Source of the DNA: Collinsella sp. An307
Lineage (GTDB): Bacteria > Actinomycetota > Coriobacteriia > Coriobacteriales > Coriobacteriaceae
Direction of reading: 5' to 3'
DNA length: 64,000 nt
Assembly: GCF_002161805.1 (NCBI RefSeq)
Contig: NZ_NFIP01000004.1
Coordinates: 1 to 64,000, forward strand
The translations under genes and the position numbers were made by a program. The notes beneath the pieces were generated by a model that saw only the letters and a program-made list of their open reading frames with translations, was not told the DNA's origin and did not search any database. Positions within the stretch are counted from its first letter, which is position 1, and every line of letters starts with the position of its first letter. Below, piece by piece: positions 57 to 42,178 of this stretch.

Positions 57-109
57 GCGGACCTCCCGTCCGGACCGCCGCGCGGTCCAACTTTTTGTCC
101 GCGGTCCCA
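1..109 (-). mobile_element. possible end of an IS3-family insertion sequence
   Basis: The stretch at about 86-109, read on the minus strand, begins TGGGACCGCGGACAAAAAGT and leads inward to the start of a transposase-like ORF at position 56. A terminal sequence starting with TG and containing a GGACAAAAAGTTGGA-like core is typical of IS3-family ends. Only this end is in the window, so neither the second terminal repeat nor a target duplication can be checked. The proposed outer border falls exactly at the left edge of the palindromic repeat at 109-196. Assignment to IS3 is inference from the look of the end. Confidence 0.3.
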
Positions 110-196
110 ATTCCGTACGTCTCTTACGATATGCACGGAAGAATCCGTATGTCTCTGACGAAAAGAGGTCCCTAAACGTCAGAAGCATACGGATTC
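109..196. repeat. three-armed palindromic intergenic repeat, copy A
   Basis: Three related 20-bp arms lie in the order direct, direct, inverted: 109-128 (diverged), 141-160 and 177-196 (inverted). The inner pair matches at 18 of 20 positions and is separated by a 16-base loop, so it can fold as a long hairpin. The same architecture, arm sequence, spacing and loop length recur at 14221-14307. No transposase is associated with the second copy. It behaves like a REP or small non-autonomous palindromic element. Confidence 0.75.
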
Positions 197-11097: not shown

Positions 11098-11252
11098 GGC
11101 AAGAATCGAAGTAATGAACCCAGGTAATGCGCGATTCGGCGCTTTTCGACACATCGGGTTCATTACTTCGATTTTCGCAGGCTCTCTACCTGCACTTCTT
11201 CTACGAGTTCACTACCGGGTTCACTACCGGGTTCATTACTTCGATTCTTGCC
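11098..11252. repeat. inverted/direct/tandem repeat cluster
   Basis: A 24-bp arm at 11098-11121 is perfectly inverted at 11229-11252. A direct copy of its 18-base core (GGGTTCATTACTTCGATT) also sits at 11156-11173. Immediately before the last arm a 12-bp unit, GTTCACTACCGG, is tandemly repeated at 11207-11218 and 11219-11230 and runs into the third arm, which shares its first bases. The cluster lies in the 468-bp gene-free stretch 10980-11447 between the met leader promoter and the end of the Gls24 gene. Function is unknown. Confidence 0.8.
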
Positions 11253-13205: not shown

Positions 13206-14012
13206 TTACTCCTCCTCGAGGGCGGCGAGCACCTCGTCGGTCATATCCATGGTGCTGTAGACGTCCTGGACGTCATCAAGCTCCTCAAGGCGGTCGATCA
13301 GGCGCTGAACCTTCTTGGCGTCAGCAGCGGAGACCGCGGTCGGCGTGGTGGGAACCATGGTGAGCTCAGAGCCCTTGACCTCGATACCCTGCTCCTCGAG
13401 ACCCTTGGAGACCGCCATGAGGTCGCCGGGGTTGGTCCAAACGACCCACTCCTCGCCAGCGTCCTCATAATCGTCGCCGCCAGCTTCGGCGACGGCCATC
13501 ATGAACTCCTCCTCATCGCCAGCAGCGCCGTTGGCCATGAGGTTCTCCTTCTTGTCGTTGGGGTCGACGATCTGCTTGGCCACGACGACCTGGCCCTTGC
13601 GCTCGAACTGGAAGGCCACCGAGCCGGTGGTGCCGAGGTTGCCGCCGGAATGAGAGAAGGCGGAGCGCACATCGGCAGCGGTACGGTTGCGGTTGTCGGT
13701 CAGGCACTCGACGTAGACCGCCACGCCCGCGGGACCGTAGCCCTCGTAGACGATGTTCTCGTAGACGGCAGCATCGGCACCGGCACCAAAGGCCTTGTCG
13801 ATGGCAGACTTGATCTTGTCCTTGGGCATCGACTGAGCCTTGGCCTTGGCGACCGCCGCGGCAAGAGAAGCGTTGTTATCGGGGTTGGGGTCGTTGCCCA
13901 GACGGGCAGCGACGGTGATGTTACGGGAGAGCTTGGAGAAGAGTGCCGAGCGCTTGGCGTCCTGAGCGCCCTTACGGTGCTTGGTAGTTGCCCATTTAGA
14001 ATGTCCGGACAT
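13206..14012 (-). CDS. yebC: YebC/PmpR-family DNA-binding protein
   Basis: 268-residue protein. It opens with the family hallmark MSGHSKWATTKHRKGAQDAKR and continues with AIDKAFGAGADAAVYENIVYEGYGPAGVAVYVE. YebC proteins act as transcriptional regulators or, as recently shown for some, help ribosomes through proline stretches. It is somewhat longer than the usual ~245 residues because of an acidic insert near residue 170. The ATG has AAGGAGTC 6 nt upstream. It is monocistronic by spacing. Confidence 0.93.
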   Translation of the reverse strand: MSGHSKWATTKHRKGAQDAKRSALFSKLSRNITVAARLGNDPNPDNNASLAAAVAKAKAQSMPKDKIKSAIDKAFGAGADAAVYENIVYEGYGPAGVAVYVECLTDNRNRTAADVRSAFSHSGGNLGTTGSVAFQFERKGQVVVAKQIVDPNDKKENLMANGAAGDEEEFMMAVAEAGGDDYEDAGEEWVVWTNPGDLMAVSKGLEEQGIEVKGSELTMVPTTPTAVSAADAKKVQRLIDRLEELDDVQDVYSTMDMTDEVLAALEEE

Positions 14013-14699
14013 GCAAGACTCCTTCTAAGTATTTGCGGCCACGGGGCGCTAGGGTGCCGAGCTGGCCCATGTGAGCATGAACTTTAGCATGATATACCGT
14101 TTGCGGCCGCCGGTACAGTCCTCGCAGGCGCTGCCACGCAATATGCAAGGTTGTGAGGCGAAAGGCAGCAGGCGCAAACGTGCTTGACGGATCTTTTGGC
14201 GCCGCCCATCGCCTGCCGGCGAATCCGTACGTTCCCGACGATAGAGCAATCGAATCCGTACGTTCCTGACGCAAAAGACCCTGCAAACGTCAGGAACGTA
14301 CGGATTCGATATGGCAAGCTATAGCAAGCGGCAAACGGCAGGAACGCATGGCCACTGGTGAGCGGCGGCAGCGGCAGCGCTCTTGTACAACGTCCTTGTA
14401 CAAAGGGGCACTGAACGGCACACGCGTCGTACGAATACCGTCCGCATCTCTGCAGCCGCGCTACCGTTCACCGAAAAGATGACTCTCCAGCAGGTGGAAT
14501 ATATATTAGTGCGAAGTGTAAAAACCGCAGGTAAAACGCCATGAAAAAAGTTGTGTTTTCCCCTTGCAAACACATGCGCCAAGTCCTAGGATACCGCGTC
14601 ATCGCGAGGCTACGCATCCGGAGGCGCACTCGCGACCGTGTGGTTTCTTTTTCTCGTCGTGCAGCCCTGAGCTGCCGACATGGGGAGAGGAGAGGTTTC
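14013..14699. other. 687-bp gene-free region with repeat copy B and an ATPase promoter
   Basis: The region holds the palindromic repeat at 14221-14307. Two CTTGTACAA sites lie 13 bp apart at 14382-14390 and 14395-14403, each with a palindromic TTGTACAA core. An AT-rich promoter candidate follows (ATGACT 14479-14484, 17 nt, TATATT 14502-14507), which would leave a 5' leader of about 185 nt before the P-type ATPase start. A small stem, TGTGTTT with AAACACA, can form near 14552-14575. I recognise no riboswitch class. Confidence 0.45.
14221..14307. repeat. three-armed palindromic intergenic repeat, copy B
   Basis: Arms lie at 14221-14240 (direct, one mismatch), 14252-14271 (GAATCCGTACGTTCCTGACG) and 14288-14307 (perfect inverse of the second). 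The inverted pair encloses a 16-base loop. Order, arm sequence, spacer lengths (11 versus 12 and 16 versus 16) and parts of the loop match copy A at 109-196. Confidence 0.8.
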
Positions 14700-17633
14700 A
14701 TGGGAAGCCGTCTCGGCGCATCGCCCGCTGTCATGCGCGATGCGTCCGCCGCGCAGACGCAAGGCGTGGCAGAGCGGGCTGAGGGGTGCGAGGACACCGA
14801 CCCGCTCGAACGAATCCGTACACAATCAATCGATCATGTTCTTGCCGAGCTCGGCTCGGGCAAGGGCGGCCTGAGCTCGCAAGAAGCTGCCGACCGCCAG
14901 CAGAAATCCGGCAAGAACCTCATCGAAAGCGCGAAAAAGCGCTCGCCGCTTCTCGCGTTTCTTTCGAACTTCACGCACCTTATGGCCATCCTGCTCTGGG
15001 TCGCCGGCGCAATCGCGTTTTTCGCCGGCATGCCCGAGCTCGGCGTGGCCGTGTGGCTCGTGAACATCATCAACGGTGTCTTTAGCTTCTGGCAGGAGCA
15101 CCGTGCAAGCCAGGCGACCGAGGCCCTGAAAAAGATGCTCCCGGCATACGCCACCGTCATCCGCGACGGCCAGCAGCAAAAGATCCTTGCCGAGGACCTC
15201 GTTCCTGGCGACGTCATGCTCCTTGCCGAAGGCGATAAGATCTCGGCGGACGCCCGCGTCATCCAGAGCTCCGACTTGCAGGTGAACCAGTCCACCCTAA
15301 ACGGCGAATCCACCCCGTCGCGCAAGACCGCCGACGCCGTTGTGGAGGACGGTCTATCGGCCGCCGAGATCCCCAACCTCGTCTTTGCCGGAACCAGCGT
15401 GTCGGAGGGCAACGGCCGCGCCGTGGTCTTTCGCATCGGCATGGCGACCGAGTTTGGCAAGATCGCGAGCCTGACACAGAATATGGAGGCTGCCGAGAGC
15501 CCGCTCACCCGCGAGCTCAATCGCCTCACCAAACAGGTGACGGTCTTTGCCATGTGCATGGGCATCGCGTTTTTCCTGCTCAGCATGTTTGTGGTGAAAG
15601 AGCCGTTTGCAAGCTCGTTCATCTTTGCGCTCGGCATGGTCGTCGCCTTCATTCCCGAGGGGCTCCTCCCCACCGTCACGCTCTCGCTCGCCATGGCGGT
15701 GCAGCGTATGAGCACGCGATGCGCCCTTGTTAAGAAACTCGACTCCGTTGAGGCACTGGGCTCCACGAGCGTCATCTGCACCGATAAGACGGGCACGCTC
15801 ACCCAAAACGAGATGACCGTGAACCATCTCTGGACGGCGACGCGCGAGTACGAGATCACCGGCGTGGGCTATGCACCCGAGGGCCATATCGAGGCCGAGG
15901 GGCGCAGCTGGCGCGCCGTGGATGACGCCGACCTGGAGCTTCTGCTCGAAGGCGGCCTGCTCTGCGGCAACGCGCGCCTGGCCGCACCCGAGGCCGAAGG
16001 CGGGCGCTGGGAGGTCTTTGGCGACCCGACCGAGGCGTGCCTCATCGTCTCTGCCGAGAAAGGCGGCATCGACCGCACCGAGCTCGAGCACCGCATGCCG
16101 CGCGTGAAGGAGCTTCCCTTTGAGAGCCGTCGCAAGCGCATGACGACGGTGCATGCCCTCGAAAACCCCGTCGATGGGGCGCACCGCATCGCCTTTGTGA
16201 AAGGCGCGCCCAACGAGGTCGTTCGCCTCTCCACACAGGTGCGCGCAAACGGCGCAACCGTTGCGCTCGATGAGGCGACGCGCGAGCGCATCATGGCGGC
16301 AAACGACGCGTACGCTGCCGACGGCTTGCGCGTGCTCGCCGTGGCGTACCGCCCCCTCGACGGGCCTCGGGCCGATAGCGACATCCCTGCCGCAATGAGC
16401 GACTACGATCCCGACACCATCGAGCGCAACCTTACCTTTGTGGGCCTCGAGGTCATGATGGACCCACCGCGCCCCGAGGTCGCCGCCGCCGTAGCGGAAT
16501 GCCACCGTGCGGGTATCCGCATCGTCATGATCACGGGCGACTACGGCCTCACCGCGGTGAGCATCGCGCGTCGCCTTAAGATCGTGGAGGGCGAGGACGT
16601 GTCGGTCATCTCGGGCTTTGAGCTCGCCCACATGGACGATGACGAGCTCAAGCGCCGCCTTGCCGGACAGGTGGTGTTTGCCCGCATGGCGCCCGAGCAG
16701 AAGCTCCGCGTGGTCACCGCCCTGCAGGAGATGGGCGAGATCGTGGCCGTGACGGGCGACGGCGTGAACGATGCGCCGGCGCTCAAGAAGGCTGACATCG
16801 GCGTTGCCATGGGCGTCACCGGTACCGACGTGGCAAAAGAGGCGGCCGACATGATCTTGACGGACGATAACTTTGCCTCCATCGTTGCCGCCATCGAGGA
16901 GGGCCGCGCCGTCTACAGCAACATCCGCAAGTTCCTCCTCTACATCTTGAACTCCAACGCGCCCGAGGCCGTGCCCTCCGCCGTGTACCTGCTCTCCGGC
17001 GGTGCCGTGCCGCTGCCGCTTACCACGATGCAGATCCTGACCATCGACCTTGGCACCGACATGCTGCCCGCCCTCGGCCTTGGCACCGAGCCGCCCGAGG
17101 ACGCCATCATGGACCAACCGCCGCGCGATCCCCACGAGCGCCTGCTCAACCGCCGCGTGCTCGTAAAGGCCTTCCTCTGGTACGGTCTTATGGGCTCCCT
17201 TGCCGCCATGACGGGGTACTTCCTCGTCAACATGCTGCACGGCTGGACGCCCGGTATGCCGCTCTTTGGCCTTGGCAACGACGGCGACCCTGTCTACATC
17301 CAGGCCACGACCATGACGCTTGCGGGCATCGTCTTCGCGCAGATCGGCCAGGTTATGAACTGCCGCACAGAACGCACCTCTGTCTTTGCGATCGGCCTTC
17401 TCTCGAACCACCGCATACTCACCGGTATCGTGTTCGAGATCGCACTCATCGTCTTCCTTACGGTGTTCCCACCGCTCCAGGGCCTTTTCCACACCACGCC
17501 GCTCGGCTGGCAGGACTATGTGTTCCTCTGTTGCATCCCGCCCATCGTTTTTGCCGTCGAGGAGCTGCGCAAGGCCTGGCTTCGCCGTCACCAAAGCGCG
17601 CGCAGTGCCAAGCGCACGCCCTCTGAGAGTTAG
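14700..17633 (+). CDS. P2-type cation-transporting ATPase, Na+/K+-ATPase-like
   Basis: 977-residue membrane pump. It has an N-terminal cation-ATPase domain (from about residue 45), the TLNGES actuator motif, phosphorylation site DKTGT with D362, the KGAPNEVV nucleotide-binding motif and the hinge GDGVNDAPAL near 686. About ten membrane helices are likely. The M4 motif PEGLLPT and the M6-region TIDLGTDMLPALGLGTEPPE, followed by QPPRDPHERLLNRR, resemble P2C (Na+/K+, H+/K+) pumps more than SERCA. The ATG at 14700 is chosen for GGAGAGG just upstream; the in-frame extension upstream looks non-coding. It is followed at 9 bp by two TrkA-like genes and there is no TrkH pore in sight. The ion is not certain. 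Confidence 0.9.
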   Translation: MGSRLGASPAVMRDASAAQTQGVAERAEGCEDTDPLERIRTQSIDHVLAELGSGKGGLSSQEAADRQQKSGKNLIESAKKRSPLLAFLSNFTHLMAILLWVAGAIAFFAGMPELGVAVWLVNIINGVFSFWQEHRASQATEALKKMLPAYATVIRDGQQQKILAEDLVPGDVMLLAEGDKISADARVIQSSDLQVNQSTLNGESTPSRKTADAVVEDGLSAAEIPNLVFAGTSVSEGNGRAVVFRIGMATEFGKIASLTQNMEAAESPLTRELNRLTKQVTVFAMCMGIAFFLLSMFVVKEPFASSFIFALGMVVAFIPEGLLPTVTLSLAMAVQRMSTRCALVKKLDSVEALGSTSVICTDKTGTLTQNEMTVNHLWTATREYEITGVGYAPEGHIEAEGRSWRAVDDADLELLLEGGLLCGNARLAAPEAEGGRWEVFGDPTEACLIVSAEKGGIDRTELEHRMPRVKELPFESRRKRMTTVHALENPVDGAHRIAFVKGAPNEVVRLSTQVRANGATVALDEATRERIMAANDAYAADGLRVLAVAYRPLDGPRADSDIPAAMSDYDPDTIERNLTFVGLEVMMDPPRPEVAAAVAECHRAGIRIVMITGDYGLTAVSIARRLKIVEGEDVSVISGFELAHMDDDELKRRLAGQVVFARMAPEQKLRVVTALQEMGEIVAVTGDGVNDAPALKKADIGVAMGVTGTDVAKEAADMILTDDNFASIVAAIEEGRAVYSNIRKFLLYILNSNAPEAVPSAVYLLSGGAVPLPLTTMQILTIDLGTDMLPALGLGTEPPEDAIMDQPPRDPHERLLNRRVLVKAFLWYGLMGSLAAMTGYFLVNMLHGWTPGMPLFGLGNDGDPVYIQATTMTLAGIVFAQIGQVMNCRTERTSVFAIGLLSNHRILTGIVFEIALIVFLTVFPPLQGLFHTTPLGWQDYVFLCCIPPIVFAVEELRKAWLRRHQSARSAKRTPSES

Positions 17634-41817: not shown

Positions 41818-42178
41818 AGCAACCCTCGCCATGGCATCGTCCCATCCCTCATATGTCCGCCTTGCGCGGAACCTGCCGCCCGCACAAGGCGGACGGCGCC
41901 ATAATCTCAGCCCCTCAGCTGACCTGGTCTTTGACCCCACACTTGCGCACCGGGGCGTTTGCTCGGGATGCCGCGGCATCCTTCACGACTGACCCGCTCG
42001 CCCGCGGGGCGGTATTGCCCCAAAGTTGGTAGGACGGACGGTGCGGCTTACCTCTAGGACGCGCCATGATCGTCCCCGCGCGCACGCGGCGACTTACGTG
42101 GATCCCTTTGACCGCGTCTGTCTTGGACTAGGGTGGATGTGCACCCGCAACCACAGCCTGAGGGTTGTTGGCATTATA
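41818..42178 (-). ncRNA. candidate structured RNA or long structured leader
   Basis: A consensus -10 hexamer TATAAT (42178-42173, minus strand) sits just past the comF stop. About 5-10 nt after the expected start, CCCTCA(G)GCTG can pair with CAGCTGAGGG roughly 250 nt later, closing the whole region, and TGGTT can stack with GACCA. Inside lie local hairpins GGGTG/CACCC, CCGCG/CGCGG, GGGGC/GCCCC and the 16-bp palindrome GGATGCCGCGGCATCC (41969-41984). A 10-bp stem (41855-41864 with 41885-41894) follows, just before the lipoprotein gene. I do not recognise RNase P, tmRNA, 6S, SRP or a known riboswitch. It could be a free RNA or the leader of the lipoprotein gene. Confidence 0.4.

Follow-up and report, generated by a model that had tools for sequence, protein, structure and literature searches.

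To our knowledge, no well-described bacterial system other than RAYT/REP has a single gene that is bracketed by dispersed palindromes of its own. Vsr-like homing endonucleases also exist, and enterobacterial BIMEs are mosaics in which several different palindromic modules are stacked. A third relevant group is formed by the AbiEi antitoxins of the type IV toxin-antitoxin system AbiE: one report (PMC7319586) describes how AbiEi and Rv2827c bind 23-bp inverted repeats, arranged as pairs and in tandem, within the promoters of their own genes. The locus described here resembles REP/RAYT in that intergenic palindromes are dispersed in one genome and bracket a single-copy gene, that their sequences are lineage-specific, and that orphan copies are found where the gene has been lost. 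It differs in that the partner protein has no Y1 domain and that arms of ~20 bp pair across a 16-base loop, with extra direct arms at 31 bp; REPs are hairpins singly, whereas the arms here do not appear to be palindromes by themselves. We interpret the arrangement as a system of the REP/RAYT kind that employs an unrelated protein.

The window, the whole 64,000-nucleotide stretch analysed here, corresponds to C12:1-64000 of G000, a 2.2-Mb genome in 17 contigs, and carries two copies of the element. In the first copy, two direct arms (109-128 and 141-160, both +) are followed by a 16-base loop (161-176, +) and an inverted arm (177-196, -). In the second, the direct arms lie at 14221-14240 and, 31 bp further on, at 14252-14271 (both +), followed by a 16-base loop (14272-14287, +) and an inverted arm (14288-14307, -). 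These coordinates confirm the palindrome with two direct arms, one inverted arm and a 16-base loop that a preliminary description had placed at both loci. Its claim of one shared design held for arm order and loop; the spacers are not identical, with 12 bases between the direct arms in the first copy and 11 in the second. Measured against the arm 20-mer, the arms of the second copy are almost intact, with 1, 0 and 0 mismatches, whereas the first copy has diverged (5, 3 and 3). A search allowing ≤3 mismatches found five matches in the window versus 0.01 expected from shuffles; direct reading shows that 5 of the 20 bases are different in the sixth arm (109-128), which therefore escaped this search. 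Both copies fold much more strongly than shuffled sequences (z -5.7 to -7.6), and folds and consensus alike place the stem between inverted arms and not inside one arm.

The element indeed occurs at six places in G000: the two in the window and those at C12:167138, C1:339156, C11:1636 and C10:131901. The reversed 20-mer had no match genome-wide in G000. In an alignment of the six copies the outer and inner arm parts are conserved and the middle is variable. Among nine genomes of the genus, strong copies (>50 bits) were found at six places in G000, four in G006, four in G007 and one in G003. Several are orthologous, namely the copy near yebC in G007, the C1 copy in G003 and G006, the C10 copy in G007, and the gltD and glnA copies in both G006 and G007. 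The six places and the orthologous copies bear out the earlier proposal of a dispersed repeat and not chance, and the genome-wide count of the 20-mer revealed more copies than the original two. At the C1 site, direct reading of the orthologous hairpins shows the loop inverted relative to its flanks in G006 (C14:30669-30728; L156:3170-3229) compared with G000 (C1:339156-339215; L025:2157-2216) and with G003; hairpins that flip their loops give such an inversion. Across the 65 family genomes, element matches at E ≤0.01 were seen in 11, some of them spurious. Weak matches to the element model (R1) in G001, G003 (C3), G004, G005 and G008 belong to a short tRNA/secE hairpin and were set aside as different, as was a match in G061 that resembles the GGGGACGGG-type repeat. 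The model matched none of the 22 GSIII loci searched, out of 80. A phage, plasmid or viral origin was rejected, as the element had no match in plasmids or phages and its 19-mer none in viral contigs.

A related arrangement was found in the sister genus, where the arm GACGCCACGGTTCCGACA of G010 and G012 follows the same geometry: direct arms recur every 31 bp, and a direct arm and the inverted arm facing it are 34 bp apart, hence the 16-base loop. This arm has 61 matches in G010 and 51 in G012, versus 6 and 2 for the reversed control, and by manual count it forms 19 and 16 multi-arm clusters, respectively. Counts in G009 and G011 are those of background or close to it (6 versus 0 and 3 versus 4, arm versus reversed control), and cluster numbers in this single genus thus vary between about 0 and 19. 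Intergenic regions of G010 and G012 are mosaics of several unrelated palindromic modules, which recalls BIMEs, although the modules are presumably unrelated to the enterobacterial PU/REP sequences. Such mosaics, reaching about 1 kb, are seen at L151:400-1600, L247:400-1600 and L250:1240-2200. The palindromes and flanks of four other family loci of G010 and G012 had no match to the other mosaic modules. A further palindrome family with nested arms, CACAATCGGTACGTTCC, lies at the gltD-glnA locus of the sister genus (L163:2979-3020 and L164:331-372).

We asked which unit is conserved in these copies, the arm or the hairpin. In 31 hairpins of G010 and G012, paired cells amounted to 84.8% versus 85.3% in shuffles; pairing no better than in shuffles indicates that the arm itself, and not base pairing, is what is kept. 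The inverted arms of the sister genus thus pair by being one motif, and the conserved unit is the arm. In the 11 copies from the genus of the window, representing few independent loci, the paired cells reached 94.8% versus 91.6%, a level attained in 1 of 500 shuffles. Selection on RNA structure, weak in the genus of the window and absent in the sister genus, was rejected as an explanation, and Rfam held no family above its gathering score for the element. It is very unlikely that the palindromes are bidirectional transcription terminators or 3' RNA hairpins, even though the folds are strong, most copies in both genera lie ~50-250 bp from the 3' end of a gene, and there is some covariation among copies in the genus of the window. 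Besides the lack of covariation in the 31 sister-genus hairpins and of an Rfam match, the copies have no U tract, the unpaired extra arm is conserved, and one copy sits between divergent genes.

In kind, the element fits the REP or miniature-element type proposed at the outset, being dispersed and intergenic, but membership in RAYT/REP was not supported. Three genes of G000 match PF01797, and the RAYT-like gene among them that had been sought as a mobiliser (C10:42266, L032) turned out to sit among a different repeat, GGGGACGGG. This RAYT-like gene, flanked by TTTGGGGACGGG repeats, also occurs in other genomes of the genus. RAYT-like genes are present as well in G001 and G002, two genomes without the element, and an origin as RAYT/REPIN was rejected on both grounds. 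An IS200/IS605 MITE was rejected too, since the ends of the element are unmatched at the resident IS200-like element C11:35381; no 20-mer match with ≤3 mismatches was found near that gene, and none was seen on reading the region. Thus, although G000 holds both RAYT-like and IS200-like genes and the element is palindromic and intergenic, we regard the idea that it is the REP/REPIN population of a RAYT, or an IS200-type MITE, as extremely unlikely. What the element does have in common with REP/RAYT is the combination of dispersed extragenic copies with one bracketed cognate gene.

This gene lies just outside the window. At positions 1-108, the window carries one end of an insertion sequence whose remainder lies beyond the contig edge; the terminal repeat reads GGGACCGCGGAC, with AAT at 109-111 as the 3-bp target duplication. 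The homology of the window to G006 and G007 begins at 108/109, and the insertion sequence directly abuts arm 1 (109-128) of the first copy. C11:1-108 is the other end of the insertion sequence, GGGACTGCGGAC, after the same AAT, and both ends carry terminal repeats of the form GGGAC[CT]GCGGAC; the insertion sequence is probably IS3-like. Its presence at the first copy explains the break between C11 and C12, which are probably neighbours, judging from the arrangement in G006 and G007. On the window side, the first copy is followed by a gene for glutamine synthetase type III (267-2438, -; Pfam GSIII_N, E 2.4e-77), whose stop codon is 71 bp away and whose product has its nearest relatives in Slackia and Collinsella. 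The second copy lies between genes identified with Pfam as encoding a YebC/TACO1 protein (13206-14012, -) and a P-type cation ATPase (14541-17633, +). The yebC-side site is a diverged region, ~230 bp longer in G000 and G007. Elsewhere in the window we observed an inverted repeat whose two perfect 24-base arms are 107 bases apart (11098-11121 and 11229-11252) and a raiA RNA (41910-42166, -, 144 bits).

Between gltD and glnA, two of the six element copies, one of them that at 109-196 of the window, enclose an unannotated gene of 379 codons (G000:C11:274-1410). In G006 and G007, too, this is the single gene enclosed by the gltD and glnA copies. By reading of the alignment, the two copies beside the gene in G000 look no more alike than the dispersed ones. 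A homologue in G012 (38% identity over 325 aa) lies between two arrays of the sister-genus type, but at a different locus, which extends from luxS to an AAA/Clp gene; G010 carries a lone array at the orthologous site, where the gene is missing. Among the matches listed, the gene is also absent from G003, which keeps an element, as it is from G010, which keeps 19 clusters. Members of the protein family (E ≤1e-15) were found in at least 60 of the 65 family genomes, and no relatives in viral contigs.

The 379-aa protein has no match in Pfam or NCBIfam, and no Y1 (HUH) transposase domain was detected in the bracketed gene. A PADLOC AbiEi profile matches residues 33-178 (E 5.6e-7), which is a weak profile similarity to the AbiEi antitoxins; among 43 members, PADLOC AbiEi profiles match up to 27 (for one profile) and Pfam AbiEi_4 matches one. 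The protein differs from these antitoxins in its extra C-terminal nuclease-like part and in having repeats on both sides of its gene; no AbiEii/DUF1814 toxin gene was noticed next to the family genes. In this second part, the signature E, D, ExDG, K, RE, R is invariant across the 43 relatives, the invariant residues including E207, D241, E255, D257, G258, K261, E280, R283, E284 and R296. The order of these residues resembles that in Vsr/DUF559-like nucleases, although only one of eight C-terminal fragments matched Pfam DUF559, with an E value of 0.1. The C-terminal part is accordingly called nuclease-like on account of its residues. A profile search of the PDB with the protein family found no related solved structure.

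To judge whether bracketing could be due to chance, we looked for repeats common to the 1.5 kb on the left and the 1.5 kb on the right of each gene and required them on both strands; flank was set against flank because the family is common in genomes. The first batch comprised 30 loci, one per genome, of which three without a full flank were dropped. The second consisted of the next 20, by listing order among rows without a locus, and the third of 20 that were hand-picked from the lower part of the listing, not strictly in order, before their flanks were seen. As controls, we used 20 stretches on the same contigs, mostly shifted by 10-12 kb (one by 100 kb), and the 66 of 80 GSIII loci that were longer than 4,900 bases. 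Repeats on both strands bracketed 43 of 67 family loci (19/27, 8/20 and 16/20 by batch), versus none of the 86 control loci (0/20 shifted stretches and 0/66 GSIII loci); 24 of the 67 family loci failed the test. For the first 47 family loci against the 86 controls, Fisher's test gave p = 8e-16. When the both-strand demand was lifted, at E ≤1e-5, 48 of 67 family loci (21, 10 and 17) and two of 86 controls (one of each kind) were positive. Loci of Y1 transposases, subjected to the same test, gave short weak matches only (6/12 at E ≤0.01), and the flank match in an 8.6-kb phage-labelled record was unconvincing and was dropped. Distances were measured in 31 loci: upstream, the 5' copy is 14-586 bp from the gene, apart from one at 1130 bp; downstream, the 3' copy lies no more than about 350 bp away and in one locus overlaps the end of the ORF.

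Comparison of 31 palindromes (465 pairs) revealed matches only for L265/L267 and L310/L311, both orthologous pairs whose proteins share 98% and 88% identity, respectively; in a gene pair at 63% protein identity the palindrome is no longer common to both. Every gene lineage among the 31 compared therefore has its own palindrome. In Collinsella aerofaciens, a single family gene was detected in the 900-kb record NZ_OY725717.1; it encodes WP_148332043.1 (hypothetical protein) and has four palindromes on its upstream side and two on its downstream side. One of these palindromes, used as a query, was found at 31 places in the record and had no match at E ≤10 in any other of 72,556 records. Five 50-kb stretches of it (250 kb) contained 41 arm matches in 11 clusters, with none in two of the stretches, and the reversed motif had no match in the same five stretches. 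Comparison with the annotation tables placed all 11 clusters outside annotated genes, four of them between divergent genes, and two of the 11 flank the family gene. This record (L336-L340) is labelled as a plasmid, yet it carries recA, rho and tuf and is thus probably chromosomal. In Tsukamurella, a 131-bp repeat (82% identity) stands on either side of one of two homologues; the other lacks one. Five records of that strain contain the repeat at 10 places in all, and the best place in each record coincides with no annotated feature. The repeat looks like short direct repeats and not like palindromes.

Considering these observations, we give an even chance to the reading that the elements of the window belong to a within-genome population of palindromes partnered with the AbiEi-like, nuclease-like gene at G000:C11:274-1410. 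The protein would bind, cut or spread the palindromes. Its N-terminal part may bind to the DNA of the ~20-bp arms, much as inverted repeats of 23 bp are bound by AbiEi proteins, a likeness that fits the arms as candidate binding sites; its C-terminal part may nick or cut at the palindrome or its hairpin; repair would then copy arms and palindromes to new places, and gene and palindrome would co-evolve as RAYT and REP do. Several findings count against this reading: no clean palindrome insertion with a target duplication was found, 24 of the 67 family loci failed the both-strand test, G003 and G010 keep elements although they lack the gene, the two copies beside the gene in G000 look no more alike than the dispersed ones, and the nuclease assignment is based on residues, with one weak DUF559 match and no related solved structure.

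An alternative is that the arms are operators, through which an AbiEi-like protein autoregulates its own gene and controls a regulon via the dispersed copies, with no mobility. The binding of AbiEi and Rv2827c to repeats in their own promoters (PMC7319586) is in accordance with such a role, as are the position of one copy upstream of the gene at the distances given above, the 31-bp period that the arms keep, and the C. aerofaciens clusters, which do not avoid the space between divergent genes. However, the other copy lies 3' of the gene, where autoregulation does not need it. Divergent-gene placement is otherwise rare, at one of seven loci in the genus of the window and at none of the sister-genus clusters with both neighbours called (heuristic genes), and the 3' copies together with this near absence argue against a pure operator role. 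The wide variation in cluster number among genomes of a single genus (about 0 to 19) is a further point against it, and we consider an operator role unlikely.

It is also conceivable that the palindromes came first and are otherwise maintained, and that the gene is a passenger of the homing type, inserted at its own palindrome after cleavage by its nuclease, leaving palindrome-gene-palindrome. Vsr-like homing endonucleases provide a precedent, and the array-gene-array order in G012, where G010 has one array, would be the expected outcome; yet gene loss between two direct arrays explains G010 equally well. The fact that each gene lineage has its own palindrome speaks against such a passenger, which we regard as distinctly unlikely.

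Returning to the partnership of gene and palindrome, we put forward tentatively, at somewhat under an even chance, that it represents a new class of selfish partnership in Actinomycetota, in which a nuclease with an AbiEi-type reader recognises its own ~20-bp arms, homes, spreads arrays of palindromes to intergenic sites and co-diverges with its palindrome, lineage by lineage. It would be an independently arisen analogue of RAYT/REP, and it would reach beyond Coriobacteriia because the repeats on the flanks of one Tsukamurella homologue are found at 10 places. Titles and abstract openings, covered for papers outside subscription, contained no description of the gene family or its palindromes, which suggests that the partnership is undescribed in the literature searched. 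A second, unrelated protein family with the RAYT/REP arrangement would demonstrate that partnerships of this kind have more than one origin, and here the partner family occurs in at least 60 of 65 family genomes and is unnamed in both NCBIfam and Pfam. The forces behind intergenic palindromes would thereby become accessible to binding and cutting assays, for which the gene lineages offer ready-made cognate and non-cognate pairs.
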